This document shows, one piece after another, positions 19,411 through 37,200 of a DNA stretch of 64,000 nt. Under the pieces are notes generated by a model that was not told the origin of the DNA, did no database searches, and saw only the letters and a list, made by a program, of their open reading frames with translations. A program made the translations under genes and the position numbers. Within the stretch, counting starts at the first letter, position 1; each line of letters opens with the position of its first letter. Source of the stretch: Flavobacterium fragile (GTDB lineage Bacteria; Bacteroidota; Bacteroidia; Flavobacteriales; Flavobacteriaceae); NCBI RefSeq assembly GCF_023634865.1, contig NZ_JAMLJN010000002.1, forward strand, positions 62,001-126,000, written 5' to 3'.

Positions 19411-20016
19411 ATGGCTTTTGAATTACCACAATTACCTTATGCATACGATGCATTAGAACCACATATTGACGCTAGAACGATGGAAATTCACCATTCTAAG
19501 CACCACAATGCATACGTTACCAACTTAAACGCTGCAATCGCTGGAACAGATTTAGAAGGAAAATCTATTGAAGATTTGATGAAAAATTTGGACATGAACA
19601 ACATGGCAGTTCGTAACAATGGTGGTGGACATTATAATCACACTATGTTTTGGGAAATTATGTCTCCAAACGGAGGTGGTTTACCAACAGGTGAATTAGC
19701 TACTGCTATTGATGCTGCTTTTGGTTCTTTTGACGCTTTCAAAGCAGAGTTTGCTAAAGCGGGTGCAACTCGTTTTGGTTCAGGATGGGCTTGGTTATGT
19801 GTGAAAGATGGCAAATTAGAAGTTTGTTCTACTCCAAATCAAGACAACCCATTAATGCCAGGTGTTGCTTGTGGCGGACAACCCATATTAGGAATGGATG
19901 TTTGGGAACATGCTTACTACTTACACTATCAAAACCGTCGTCCAGATTATATTGAAGCATTCTTTAATGTAATTAATTGGACAGAGGTTGCAAAACGTTT
20001 TTCTGCATTGAAATAA
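19411..20016 (+). CDS. sod: superoxide dismutase (Fe/Mn family)
   Basis: 201 aa. It disproportionates superoxide in the cytoplasm. Metal ligands fit His27 (MEIHHSKHH), His77 ([10 protein letters not shown]), Asp163 and His167 (MDVWEHAYY). RFGSGWAWL and the C-terminal [11 protein letters not shown] are typical of the family. I cannot decide between Fe, Mn or cambialistic use from the sequence. It has its own promoter and a strong terminator. The non-coding sRNA block begins directly downstream, on the other strand. Confidence 0.95.
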
Positions 20017-20086: not shown

Positions 20087-20193
20087 AAAAAAGGTGAAAT
20101 TGCTTTCACCCTTTTTGCCCCAAATCTACCATAAAACTTAACCTACTAATTTTCTGGTAGAACTAAAGTAGAACAGTATATCTTGTGTGACGA
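20087..20193 (-). ncRNA. tandem sRNA gene, copy 1
   Basis: The predicted RNA of about 74 nt runs from about 20160 to 20087. Promoter: TACTTTAG (20163-20170) with TCG (20191-20193) 20 nt upstream. The 5' hairpin has CTACCA/TGGTAG arms (20126-20131 and 20155-20160) with an AGTAGGTTA loop. The linker ATTTGGGGC follows, then a terminator: GGTGAAA GCAA TTTCACC (20093-20110) and six T. A G-U pair in the hairpin exists only on the minus strand. No reading frame is conserved. It is one of four paralogous units; the terminator stem sequence differs from the other copies while the structure is kept. Confidence 0.82.
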
Positions 20194-20297
20194 AAAAAAT
20201 TGTTGAATAACACAAAAACTCGATGAAATGCGTTTTTGAAGAGTAAAATAAATTAATTTTTTACTTTCTCAAACAAATTTATTTCTTTTTGGGTAAT

Positions 20298-20404
20298 AAA
20301 AAAAGGCACGCATAGCGTACCCTTTTTGCCCCAAATCTACCATAAAATTTAACCTACTAATTTTTTGGTAAAGCTAAGATAGAACAGTAAATCGTTTGTA
20401 ACGA
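20298..20404 (-). ncRNA. tandem sRNA gene, copy 2
   Basis: The predicted RNA runs from about 20371 to 20298. Promoter: TATCTTAG (20374-20381) with TCG (20402-20404) 20 nt upstream. The 5' hairpin uses TACCA/TGGTA; the outermost pair is lost. Linker ATTTGGGGC. Terminator stem GGTACGC/GCGTGCC (20305-20321) with a TAT loop, then seven T; its T-G pair would be an A-C mismatch on the plus strand, supporting minus-strand transcription. Confidence 0.82.
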
Positions 20405-20499
20405 AAAAAATTGTTGAACAACACAAAAACTCGATGAAATGCGTTTTAGAAAATAAAATAAGTTAATTTTTTTCTATTATTCATTTCTTTTTGGGTAAT

Positions 20500-20606
20500 A
20501 AAAAAGGCACGCATAGCGTACCCTTTTTGCCCCAAATCTACCATAAAATTTAACCTACTAATTTTTTGGTAGTACTAAATTAGAATAGAATAATGCACTT
20601 ACACAA
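20500..20606 (-). ncRNA. tandem sRNA gene, copy 3
   Basis: The predicted RNA runs from about 20572 to 20500. Promoter: TAATTTAG (20575-20582) with TTG (20604-20606) 21 nt upstream. The 5' hairpin has CTACCA/TGGTAG (20538-20543 and 20567-20572) plus an inner AAAAT/ATTTT helix. Linker ATTTGGGGC. Terminator identical to copy 2 (20506-20522). This copy has the best -33 match. Confidence 0.82.
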
Positions 20607-20691
20607 AAAAATTGATAAACGTATAAAAAAAAACGATGAAATGCATTTTTATACAATTTTTTGATTCTATTAATCTAAGAAAAGTTTAAAC

Positions 20692-20799
20692 AAAAAAAGA
20701 GTACAGATATCGTACTCTTTTACCCCAAATCTGCCATAAACTTTAACCTACTAACTTTATGGCTGTGCTAAAATAGAAGGATATTTTCAATTTTATCGA
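20692..20799 (-). ncRNA. tandem sRNA gene, copy 4 (divergent, purF-proximal)
   Basis: The predicted RNA runs from about 20763 to 20692. Promoter: TATTTTAG (20768-20775) with TCG (20797-20799) 21 nt upstream. The hairpin is GCCATAAA/TTTATGGC (20733-20740 and 20756-20763): the A-T pair of the other copies is G-C here, a compensatory change. The loop TTAGTAGGTTAAA is retained. The linker is ATTTGGGGT. The terminator has a new stem GAGTAC/GTACTC (20699-20717) and seven T. It is closest to purF, and its upstream element overlaps the last purF codons. Confidence 0.82.
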
Positions 20800-20841
20800 A
20801 AAAAAATGTTAATCGAAAAAAAAATACGACAAACCTCATTT

Positions 20842-22740
20842 TTAATAGGCTCTCGCATCTTTCCCTTCATAAAAATTCATAAAAGCTCTATTTACTACAC
20901 GATTTCCTCCATCTGTTGGGTAATCGCCAGTGAAATACCAATCGCCTAAATTCTTTGGACATGCTTTATGCAAATCTTCCACCGTTTGATAAATAATTTT
21001 TACTTCTGCTTTAGTATCATCTGGCGTAAGCATTTCGGCAATTTTATCTGAAATTTCTTGATCTGTAAAAGGTGCATAAATTTCTTTTACATAATTCACT
21101 ACATCAGCATCACTAAAATCTTCTTGTGCTTTTGACTTTTGATAAACCTCCTCTACTATATGATATAAGTTGCGTTCTTTCAGTAATTCTAAAGCAGCTC
21201 TAAACGCTACTAAACCTTCTAATTTCGCCATATCGATTCCGTAACAATCGGGATAACGAATTTGAGGTGCTGATGAAACTACAACAATTTTCTTTGGATG
21301 CAAACGATCCATCATTTTAATAATACTTTGTTTTAAGGTAGTTCCTCGCACAATACTATCATCAATAATTACCAAATTATCGGTTGGTTTTACTACTCCG
21401 TACGTTACATCATACACGTGAGCCACTAAATCATCGCGACTACTATCTTCTGTAATAAACGTTCTTAGTTTCGCATCTTTAATGGCTATTTTTTCGGTTC
21501 TAATTTTTACTGAAAGTAATTCTTTTAGAGTATCTTCTGTTAACGTATCTTTTTGCTCTATAATTGCTTTCGCTTTTCTTTGGTTCAAGAAATCTTGAGC
21601 CGCTTCACACATTCCGTAAAAAGAAGTTTCAGCTGTGTTTGGAATATAAGAGAAAACGGTGTTATCTGTGTCGTTATCGATAGATTTTAAAACACTTGGG
21701 AAAATTAATCTTCCTAGTTCTTTTCGCTCTTGGTAAATTTCGGCATCACTTCCACGAGAGAAATAAATACGTTCAAACGAACACGCTTTCTTTACCAATG
21801 GAGTTCTAACTTCTTCAATAGAAACTTTACCATTTTTCTTGATAATGATAGCACTTCCAGGATCTAATTCTTGAACTTTTTCGAAAGGTACATTGAAAAC
21901 CGTTTGAATTACTGGACGTTCTGAAGCTACCACCACTATTTCATCATCTTCATAAAAGAAAGCAGGACGAATTCCGGCTGGATCGCGCATAACGAATGAA
22001 TCGCCGTGACCTAATAAACCAGCCATAGCATAACCACCATCCCAATTACGAGAGGCGCGTTCTAAAATTCGTTGGATATTCAATCGTTCACCAATAATTG
22101 GGGAAGCGTCTTTTTTGGAAAAACCTTCGTTTTTGCATTCTTTATACAAATGTGTCACCTCATCATCTAAGAAATGTCCGATTTTCTCCATTACCGTAAC
22201 CGTATCGGCCATTTGTTTAGGATGTTGGCCTAAATCGATTAAGTTTTGGAACAACTCTTTCACATTCGTCATGTTAAAGTTCCCCGCTACGATTAGATTT
22301 CGGTGCATCCAATTGTTTTGACGTAAAAATGGGTGTACACTTTCGATACTGTTTTTACCAAAAGTCCCGTAACGGACGTGACCTAAAAACACTTCACCCA
22401 CATACGGAATATTTTGTTTTTGAAGTGCCACATTATTCTGATATTCAGGATGTGCTTCTAGTTCGCCGCTGATGCGTTCGTTGATTTGAGCAAAGATATC
22501 TTTAATTGGTTGCGGATCATTAGAACGAATACGACTAATGTATCGCTCACCTGGATTTACATCTAATTTAATACTTGCCAATCCGGCTCCGTCTTGACCA
22601 CGGTTGTGTTGCTTTTCCATTAATAAGTACATTTTTTGTACTCCATAAAAAGCAGTTCCGTATTTTTCCTTATAGAATTCTAACGGTTTTTTTAATCGCA
22701 GTAGTGCAATTCCACATTCGTGTTTGATTGCGTCACTCAT
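20842..22740 (-). CDS. purF: amidophosphoribosyltransferase
   Basis: 632 aa. It catalyses the first committed step of purine synthesis: glutamine and PRPP to phosphoribosylamine. The N-terminal Ntn glutaminase nucleophile is Cys9 in HECGIALLRL, so eight residues precede it. NRGQDGAGLAS is also present. The PRPP motif VIIDDSIVRGTTL lies near residue 460. It is longer than the roughly 500-aa E. coli enzyme, with a C-terminal extension ending in a conserved-looking GDWYFTGDYPTDGG segment. It follows the PfkB gene after a terminator; the sRNA array lies directly downstream. Confidence 0.95.
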   Translation of the reverse strand: MSDAIKHECGIALLRLKKPLEFYKEKYGTAFYGVQKMYLLMEKQHNRGQDGAGLASIKLDVNPGERYISRIRSNDPQPIKDIFAQINERISGELEAHPEYQNNVALQKQNIPYVGEVFLGHVRYGTFGKNSIESVHPFLRQNNWMHRNLIVAGNFNMTNVKELFQNLIDLGQHPKQMADTVTVMEKIGHFLDDEVTHLYKECKNEGFSKKDASPIIGERLNIQRILERASRNWDGGYAMAGLLGHGDSFVMRDPAGIRPAFFYEDDEIVVVASERPVIQTVFNVPFEKVQELDPGSAIIIKKNGKVSIEEVRTPLVKKACSFERIYFSRGSDAEIYQERKELGRLIFPSVLKSIDNDTDNTVFSYIPNTAETSFYGMCEAAQDFLNQRKAKAIIEQKDTLTEDTLKELLSVKIRTEKIAIKDAKLRTFITEDSSRDDLVAHVYDVTYGVVKPTDNLVIIDDSIVRGTTLKQSIIKMMDRLHPKKIVVVSSAPQIRYPDCYGIDMAKLEGLVAFRAALELLKERNLYHIVEEVYQKSKAQEDFSDADVVNYVKEIYAPFTDQEISDKIAEMLTPDDTKAEVKIIYQTVEDLHKACPKNLGDWYFTGDYPTDGGNRVVNRAFMNFYEGKDARAY

Positions 22741-29571: not shown

Positions 29572-30669
29572 TTAAAACTCAAACTTCAATTGCACCGAAA
29601 CACTTTTTTGCAGTAAATCGGTTTTGGCTTTTTCTTCGTTGTTTAAATTATGGATAGAAATTCCTAATAATCTTACGGAGTTTCTTAAGCGTTCTTGGTA
29701 AAGTAAATCTTTGGCAACGTCTAAAATGATGTTTTTATCACTTACATAATAAGGTAGCGTTTTGCTTCGAGTTTGTAAGGTGAAATCGGAATATTTTATT
29801 TTTAGCGTGATGGTCTTGCCTGAAATTTTGCTCTTTTGTAGGCGTCTTTCTAGTTCTTTGGCGATGCTTTGCAAACGTTCTTCCATGAATATTTCGGAAG
29901 ATAAATTTTCTCCAAATGTACGTTCCGCTCCAACAGATTTTATCTTACGATTTGGTTTTACTGGGCTATTATGAATGCCACGACAAATTTGGTAATAATG
30001 AAAACCACTGTTTCCAAAGTGTTTCTCTAAATAATCTAACGGTTTTTGCTTTAAATCATAACCTGTGAATATACCTAGTTGATACATTTTTTCAGCCGTT
30101 ACCTTTCCTACACCATAGAACTTTTTAATGTCTAACTTTTCTAAAAATGCTTCAACTTCATCGGGATTTACCGTTTTTTGTCCGTTAGGCTTGTTATAAT
30201 CGGAAGCGATTTTAGCTACGAATTTATTTACGGAAATTCCTGCCGAAGCCGTAAGTCCAACTTCATCAAAAATGCGTTTTCTTATTTCTTGAGCAATTAA
30301 AGTGGCGCTGGGATTGCCTTTTTTATTTTCGGTAACGTCTAAATAGGCTTCATCGAGCGATAATGGTTCGACTAAATCGGTATACTCGTGGAATATCTTT
30401 CTGATTTTCTTTGAAATTTCTTTGTAACGATCAAATCTTGGTCGCACGAAAATCAAATCGGGACACAATTTCTTCGCTTGAATACCGCTAATGGCACTTC
30501 GAACTCCAAATTTTCTAGCTTCGTAACTTGCTGCTGAAACTACGCCACGAACTTCGCTTCCACCAACAGCCAAAGGCTTTCCTTTCAACTCAGGATTGTC
30601 CATTTGCTCTACCGATGCATAAAACGCATCCATGTCTACGTGTATAATTTTTCGGTAGTGTTGATTCAT
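29572..30669 (-). CDS. dinB: DNA polymerase IV (Y family)
   Basis: 365 aa. It performs translesion synthesis. Catalytic motifs IIHVDMDAFYASVEQ and PLSLDEAYLDVT hold the metal-binding acidic residues. The helix-hairpin-helix thumb (KKFYGVGKVTAEKM) and a little-finger domain follow. The C-terminus ends in SVSVQLKFEF; I see no full beta-clamp QxxLF motif, though LLQKSV may serve. It sits 2 nt after the Gcr-type gene's stop codon. Confidence 0.95.
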   Translation of the reverse strand: MNQHYRKIIHVDMDAFYASVEQMDNPELKGKPLAVGGSEVRGVVSAASYEARKFGVRSAISGIQAKKLCPDLIFVRPRFDRYKEISKKIRKIFHEYTDLVEPLSLDEAYLDVTENKKGNPSATLIAQEIRKRIFDEVGLTASAGISVNKFVAKIASDYNKPNGQKTVNPDEVEAFLEKLDIKKFYGVGKVTAEKMYQLGIFTGYDLKQKPLDYLEKHFGNSGFHYYQICRGIHNSPVKPNRKIKSVGAERTFGENLSSEIFMEERLQSIAKELERRLQKSKISGKTITLKIKYSDFTLQTRSKTLPYYVSDKNIILDVAKDLLYQERLRNSVRLLGISIHNLNNEEKAKTDLLQKSVSVQLKFEF

Positions 30670-37035: not shown

Positions 37036-37200
37036 TTGTTGTGTCTTTTATGTTATTTTGGGGCAAATTTCATACATATTTTACATTCACATGTTAAGTT
37101 ATTGTTAACAAATAAGTTGTGAAATTAAAAGTATAGTCATGAAATTTTACAAAACCACAGTAAACACTGACACAAAACAGAAAAATGATTTAAAAGAATA

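Follow-up and report, generated by a model that had tools for sequence, protein, structure and literature searches.

Tandem units of a multicopy family of putative small RNAs in Flavobacteriaceae and their association with a LytTR response regulator

The gap between the genes of superoxide dismutase (sod) and purF in the studied genome contains four tandem units which, in our opinion, are rather likely to belong to a multicopy family of small RNAs (sRNAs) controlled by a LytTR response regulator and probably acting by base-pairing. RNA of this type, absent from Rfam, is carried by about four fifths of the sampled Flavobacteriaceae genomes, usually at a fixed place, and is tied to one response regulator. 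Knowledge of sRNA biology in Bacteroidota rests mostly on Bacteroides. The regulator and the RNA form a pair directly testable in tractable non-pathogenic species, for example F. johnsoniae, and the covariance model of the RNA could be used for the annotation of hundreds of genomes. Hereafter, the window means the whole 64-kb stretch of DNA that was analysed.

The four units and their predicted structure

The sod–purF gap is 825 nt long and contains a 127-nt repeat in four copies, whose starts are spaced by 211, 201 and 193 nt (Table 1). An earlier note on the window had described four tandem minus-strand units about 190–210 nt apart in a gap of this length, and the new measurements agree with it. 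Every unit includes TCG or TTG, 20–21 nt, the box TAnnTTAG, a hairpin with the loop AGTAGGTTA, then the linker ATTTGGGG and finally a terminator; the shared promoter, hairpin, loop, linker and terminator named in that note could be aligned in all four copies. The 12-mer TTAGTAGGTTAA occurs four times in the 2.69-Mb genome, always within this gap. Judging from their sequences, the four units would be transcribed, and their former description as independently promoted, structured RNAs of the minus strand holds by promoters, folds and covariance models. One detail had to be narrowed: the AG at the end of the box, earlier called constant, is common to these four copies, but across 143 promoters that position is occupied by T (84 promoters), A (44), C (11) or G (4). 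The AG is therefore regarded as a lineage feature.

Table 1. Positions of the genes, sRNA units and promoter elements at the sod–purF locus (numbering of the window).
Feature	Position	Strand	Remarks
sod (Fe/Mn superoxide dismutase)	19411..20016	+	convergent, conserved neighbour
sRNA copy 1 (hairpin, linker, terminator)	20087..20162	-	
-7 box of copy 1, TACTTTAG	20163..20170	-	
LytTR-type half-sites of copy 1 (two, 20-bp period)	20201..20231	-	28.9 bits, rank 2 in window
sRNA copy 2	20298..20373	-	
-7 box of copy 2, TATCTTAG	20374..20381	-	
LytTR-type half-sites of copy 2	20412..20442	-	31.7 bits, rank 1 in window
sRNA copy 3	20499..20574	-	
-7 box of copy 3, TAATTTAG	20575..20582	-	
LytTR-type half-sites of copy 3	20612..20644	-	period 21, not 20; weight-matrix score -5.7
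sRNA copy 4	20693..20767	-	most diverged; A-U to G-C in hairpin
-7 box of copy 4, TATTTTAG	20768..20775	-	
LytTR-type half-sites of copy 4	20807..20837	-	11.6 bits, rank 4 in window
purF	20842..22740	-	conserved upstream neighbour, same strand as sRNA units

All four copies fold as previously described, with z-scores from -3.6 to -4.3 and none of 200 shuffled sequences as good for any copy. Two hairpins are predicted per 75-nt unit, the 5' hairpin being found in each of the four copies. Three different stems were counted among the four terminators (copies 2 and 3 have the same one), in accordance with the claim of three stem sequences keeping one structure. The compensatory A-T to G-C change reported for copy 4 is real, but a neighbouring pair of this copy is broken (A-A).

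The argument from covariation was checked on a wider alignment of 150 of the 167 copies found (134 distinct), where it proved strong for the terminator but weak for the 5' hairpin. Two-sided compensatory changes occur in all seven terminator pairs over the 134 distinct copies, and all five covariation measures for the terminator exceed those of all 500 shuffles, in an alignment that is biased toward high covariation by related rows and by its fitting to the model. In the first hairpin, such changes were found in three of 12 pairs (four cells, the same 134 copies); with so few of them, this hairpin therefore rests on fold and conservation and not on covariation. About 40 columns of the 150-copy alignment are at least 90% conserved. 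The element AGTAGGTT is invariant in all 150 copies, and no more than three of them deviate at any position of the 21-nt stretch ATGGTAGATTTGGGGCAAAAA. According to the predicted fold, the loop with its core AGUAGGUU and the following linker GAUUUGGGGC, both nearly invariant, would be exposed. Similarity of copies within one locus is 0.879 (87 pairs) versus 0.798 between loci, as in local duplication or conversion.

Distribution of the family and its relation to known RNAs

When 150 sampled genomes of the genus were searched with a covariance model built on the four copies of the window (R1), 131 had matches at E<=0.01; in 121 of them the matches are strong and in 10 weak (1e-4 to 1e-2). With a second model (R2), obtained from 57 copies after removal of a false match (L017:1693-1757:+), the RNA was found in 239 of 299 sampled Flavobacteriaceae genomes at E<=1e-4, representing 192 of 236 genera, with one to seven copies per genome. 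In the order-wide sample, 40 of 296 genomes matched, and all 40 belong to Flavobacteriaceae; judging by the order of the matches listed, this family accounts for about 50 of the 296 genomes, and therefore about 246 genomes of other families would be without the RNA. The genus, family and order searches were carried out with stricter filters, at which weak matches are lost. When 39 negatives (all 19 of the genus and 20 of the 60 of the family) were searched again with laxer filters, only six genomes gave scores, near 31 bits. The hit obtained in this way in G033, located behind purF, is one of two diverged copies, and a few scored negatives are therefore diverged positives. Phage records were also searched for the RNA, with no match.

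In the best-scoring loci, taken one per genome (58 loci, L006–L034 and L058–L086), purF lies within 1.5 kb in 52 cases, and purF or sod in 54. RNA copies with neither gene nearby were found in L017, L067, L081 and L083. The two copies in L017 (1501-1801) are located downstream of frames that, as read from their translations, resemble a receiver domain and a kinase. Two exact-pattern hits in genome contigs (L035 and L036) were rejected, being unsupported by the RNA model.

The search of the whole 64-kb window against Rfam 15 gave no matches at gathering scores, and a loose search (E up to 5) yielded 19 matches, none of which came near its gathering score or was to Flavo-1. Flavo-1 (RF01705) had been named as the first candidate in the earlier note, and the Rfam check proposed there was thus carried out, with no match at the gathering score. 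In the available text of its description, Flavo-1 is likewise a putative noncoding RNA of Bacteroidetes (PMC2864571). A likeness by description is also found in FopS, a paralogous sRNA family of Bacteroides, which is said to be deposited in Rfam (PMC11697453). As far as the accessible part of that paper goes, FopS RNAs likewise occur in Bacteroidota as multicopy sRNAs that share one conserved element and end in an intrinsic terminator, with an RRM protein present as in the genome studied here (PMC11697453). They differ in being distributed in Bacteroidaceae in 12–15 copies with canonical promoters (one copy is derived from a 3'UTR), and their seed is placed in the single-stranded 5' end in the text available to us, whereas a 5' hairpin is predicted in the present RNA (PMC11697453). 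The latter has one to seven copies, usually in tandem behind purF, and LytTR-type sites.

Regulatory RNAs driven by LytTR or other response regulators are exemplified by RNAIII (AgrA), VR-RNA (VirR), Qrr (LuxO) and csRNAs (CiaR). Several of these are multicopy siblings like the units considered here, but they come from other phyla, and no sequence relation to them is claimed. The resemblance to sibling sRNAs pointed out earlier agrees with the sequences, which contain several copies, each with its own putative promoter and terminator and with an identical element predicted to be exposed. Within the texts available, the literature found describes neither this RNA family nor its tandem arrangement, family-wide distribution or LytTR link, and no tandem sRNAs of Bacteroidota preceded by LytTR sites were met there.

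Upstream half-sites and the LytTR protein

A conserved element overlooked in the earlier note is situated upstream of all four copies (Table 1). Expectation-maximization search in 143 distinct promoters resolved it into two half-sites of the form GCnKTTYRTC(G/T)A, arranged as direct repeats with a period of 20 bp and located 30–60 nt upstream of the -7 box. These promoters were aligned on the -7 box, which was picked by the letters TA..TT, so these letters are fixed by construction; copies that lack AGTAGGTT or have less than 120 nt of upstream sequence were left out. The conserved C is kept by 141 of the 143 promoters in half-site 1 and by 140 in half-site 2, and 135 promoters have the same distance to the -7 box within one base. 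LytTR sites are described in the accessible part of a paper as two direct repeats of 9–11 nt with a spacer of 11–13 nt and without a common consensus (PMC4847170); AlgR sites read CCGTTCGTC and CCGTTTGTC (PMC4064291), and AgrA sites lie near -60 (PMC4227749), both as given in the text available. The present elements, 9-mers 11 nt apart with a period of 20 upstream of a promoter, agree with this definition; the length of the repeats, their spacing and their location are those expected for LytTR response regulators as putative ligands.

With its own locus left out of the matrix, a promoter scored at least 8 bits in 131 of 143 cases. When the matrix from 131 other promoters was applied to the window, copies 2 and 1 came first and second and copy 4 fourth, and copy 3 was missed; the low score of copy 3 is due, we think, to its period of 21. 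A match at 30153-30183 (13.0 bits), which ranked above copy 4, was taken as chance, being antisense inside a frame read as dinB. Among the 12 promoters below 8 bits, about five share another motif. Five purF-distal copies have no LytTR sites (L022 209-283, L029 1308-1386, L046 915-992, L047 1091-1165 and L052 743-820) and share another upstream element, near CTCATTTGCCTATCATYCCAATATATTT, through which a further regulator perhaps acts on this RNA.

The genome of the window encodes one LytTR protein, consisting of receiver and LytTR domains, and a LytS-type kinase was looked for in this genome and not found. The LytTR gene is flanked by rpsF-rpsR-rplI and by priA, and this arrangement is shared by all 10 loci compared. 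Its orthologue (best match with E<=1e-60, a cut-off placed at the gap among ranked matches) is present in 39 of 41 RNA-bearing genomes, hand-picked from the positives, versus five of 39 scored RNA-free ones, which are the re-searched negatives (Fisher p 9e-15). The exceptions with the regulator are of different kinds: G061 has the promoter and the first bases of the RNA followed by a run of N; in G033, both RNA copies are diverged and have good sites; G016 gave no purF match; in G026 and G159 the purF–sod gap is empty. In the RNA-bearing genome G335 (1.2 Mb), a LytTR search at 1e-10 gave nothing, and half-sites are missing from the promoter, where the best score is -15.4 bits. In G192, also RNA-bearing, a site scores 8.5 bits, and the one LytTR hit is diverged.

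As a phylogenetic control, a purF tree was made by a quick method for 78 genomes (G016 and G104, for lack of purF, were left out). This tree requires 10 changes for the RNA and six for the regulator. There are six supported independent RNA contrasts as scored and five after correction of the exceptions; the regulator changes in the same direction in two to four of them and in the opposite direction in none (sign test p 0.125–0.5). Three contrasts based on the regulator go the same way in 2.4 cases on average, and one is opposite in a few of 200 pairings. The direction of the contrasts is consistent, but shared ancestry explains part of the co-occurrence.

The matrix derived from sRNA promoters alone was applied to the 150 nt preceding LytTR genes. 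The motif scored at least 8 bits before 22 of the 45 orthologues, before none of the 24 paralogues and in three of 419 background tiles (orthologues versus paralogues, Mann-Whitney p 6e-9, with related genomes not being independent). The orthologues include the diverged one of G192, the paralogues include three close second copies, and L122, being another record of G032, was excluded. The other 23 orthologues, including the LytTR gene of the window's genome (-10 bits), lack the motif at this threshold. These data suggest a link between this particular LytTR protein and the half-sites of the sRNA promoters. Sites of at least 8 bits are situated about 55–115 nt before the LytTR gene. In the genus, such sites (L125, L126, L127, L223, L226, L229 and L232) point away from the regulator gene. 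Where checked (L125–L127), they face the rpsF-rpsR-rplI operon, which may therefore be a target.

Possible action of the RNA and alternative readings

In the proposed mechanism, the LytTR regulator encoded between rpsF-rpsR-rplI and priA would bind the two direct half-sites upstream of each promoter. Judging from the position of the half-sites, it would most likely be an activator rather than a repressor, responding to some signal. Each regulatory RNA of about 75 nt would be made from its own promoter and ended by an intrinsic terminator, and tandem copies would provide a higher RNA dose once the regulator has been activated. With its exposed loop and linker, the RNA most likely pairs in trans with the translation-initiation regions of several mRNAs, and an RRM protein possibly assists; one RRM_1 protein is encoded in the genome of the window.

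Complements of the loop and linker were looked for in this genome with two 12-mers and at most one mismatch, and no convincing target was obtained. The linker complement has four sites outside the sRNA genes, all within or antisense to frames, and the loop complement has 16 such sites versus 86 for the reversed pattern. The best candidate in the window, the leader of a TonB-dependent receptor gene (37045-37070, minus strand), contains at 37057 an 11-nt exact complement of the sRNA linker; as a target it was rejected, since the match overlaps a probable -7 box and is not conserved. Leaders of three orthologues of this receptor (G032, G010 and G139), among 20 compared stretches, read TTTGCCAAA.

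Exact complements of the sRNA of 8–10 nt are present in 18 of 36 LytTR leaders versus one of 24 paralogue leaders. The longest exact complement is larger in LytTR leaders than in paralogues (p 0.001), and a shuffled sRNA was as good in three of 300 trials; leaders of the genus were compared with the RNA form of the genus, and all paralogues with that of the family. The CTTAACCTA part of this complement may be the promoter box TATCTTAA, and the LytTR leader of the window's own genome has a complement of 6 nt only. Feedback pairing between the sRNA and the LytTR leader may be considered as an idea prompted by these sequences. An extended version, which we put forward tentatively and with more doubt than belief, is a core circuit of the whole family, in which a conserved LytTR regulator would have the dose-amplified sRNA tandem as its most conserved output. 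Feedback would close the circuit, through regulator sites beside the gene of the regulator itself and, for several genera, through the sRNA complements of 8–10 nt at or near its start codon. It would be comparable to the LuxO–Qrr circuit of vibrios. In L257 (G192), the sequence around the LytTR start codon is CCTACTTATG, which is exactly complementary to the sRNA loop over 10 nt.

Other readings of the units differ in probability. The RNA could bind a protein as its decoy or scaffold, similarly to CsrB and RsmZ, with the number of copies setting stoichiometry; this we consider rather unlikely, even if an almost invariant loop and linker across many genera and several copies would suit one conserved partner and the complement searches yielded no good mRNA target. 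Known decoy RNAs carry many binding elements, whereas each RNA here has one, and the complements in LytTR leaders, perhaps consisting partly of promoter letters, also speak for pairing. The units could alternatively be an element of DNA or of an mRNA end, such as repeated terminators behind purF giving no stable RNA, and their position after purF on the same strand agrees with this. Such an explanation seems very improbable in view of the -7 box of each unit, regulator sites at a constant distance in most promoters, a conservation of loop and linker that far exceeds the needs of a terminator, and the few copies situated elsewhere (L017, L067, L081 and L083). A small peptide gene, beginning with ATG GTA GAT TTG GGG CAA AAA, is hardly credible: an ATG-led frame (one GTG) does exist in all 150 aligned copies, but its end varies among them, with an early stop in copy 4. 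Codon positions 1, 2 and 3 are equally invariant over the 150 copies; third positions are no more variable than the others, and the peptide was therefore rejected.

It is also conceivable, albeit unlikely in our view, that the RNA has already been reported as one of the transcripts Rfp1–89 of F. psychrophilum, perhaps as Rfp18. In this species, 85 new RNAs were described, and Rfp18 affects two metalloprotease mRNAs, according to the available part of the paper (PMC9723704); candidate sRNAs were also reported in an RNA-seq study of F. columnare, as far as its accessible text goes (PMC5395568). The family may therefore have been seen before as a transcript. By description, Rfp18 is similar to the present RNA in its wide conservation in the genus and strong fold, and it is expressed in F. 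columnare too (PMC9723704, text available to us). However, it pairs by a third stem-loop, whereas the present 75-nt unit has two predicted hairpins, although a longer transcript, such as one over tandem copies, may exist; the available main text mentions tandem copies for no Rfp and does not mention LytTR (PMC9723704).

Some minor observations concern the preferred reading of the units as base-pairing sRNAs. A one-mismatch complement of the loop in L109 (1501-1512, minus strand) precedes by 19 nt a frame that starts with MNKKVLLFLALLTIGYSKAQ and has a signal-peptide-like beginning. In L107, a loop complement lies just inside the start of a frame. Duplex energies calculated at 45 gene starts of the window, and for gene starts only, were -15.9 for the sRNA versus -13.9 for the shuffled sRNA (sd 0.55).
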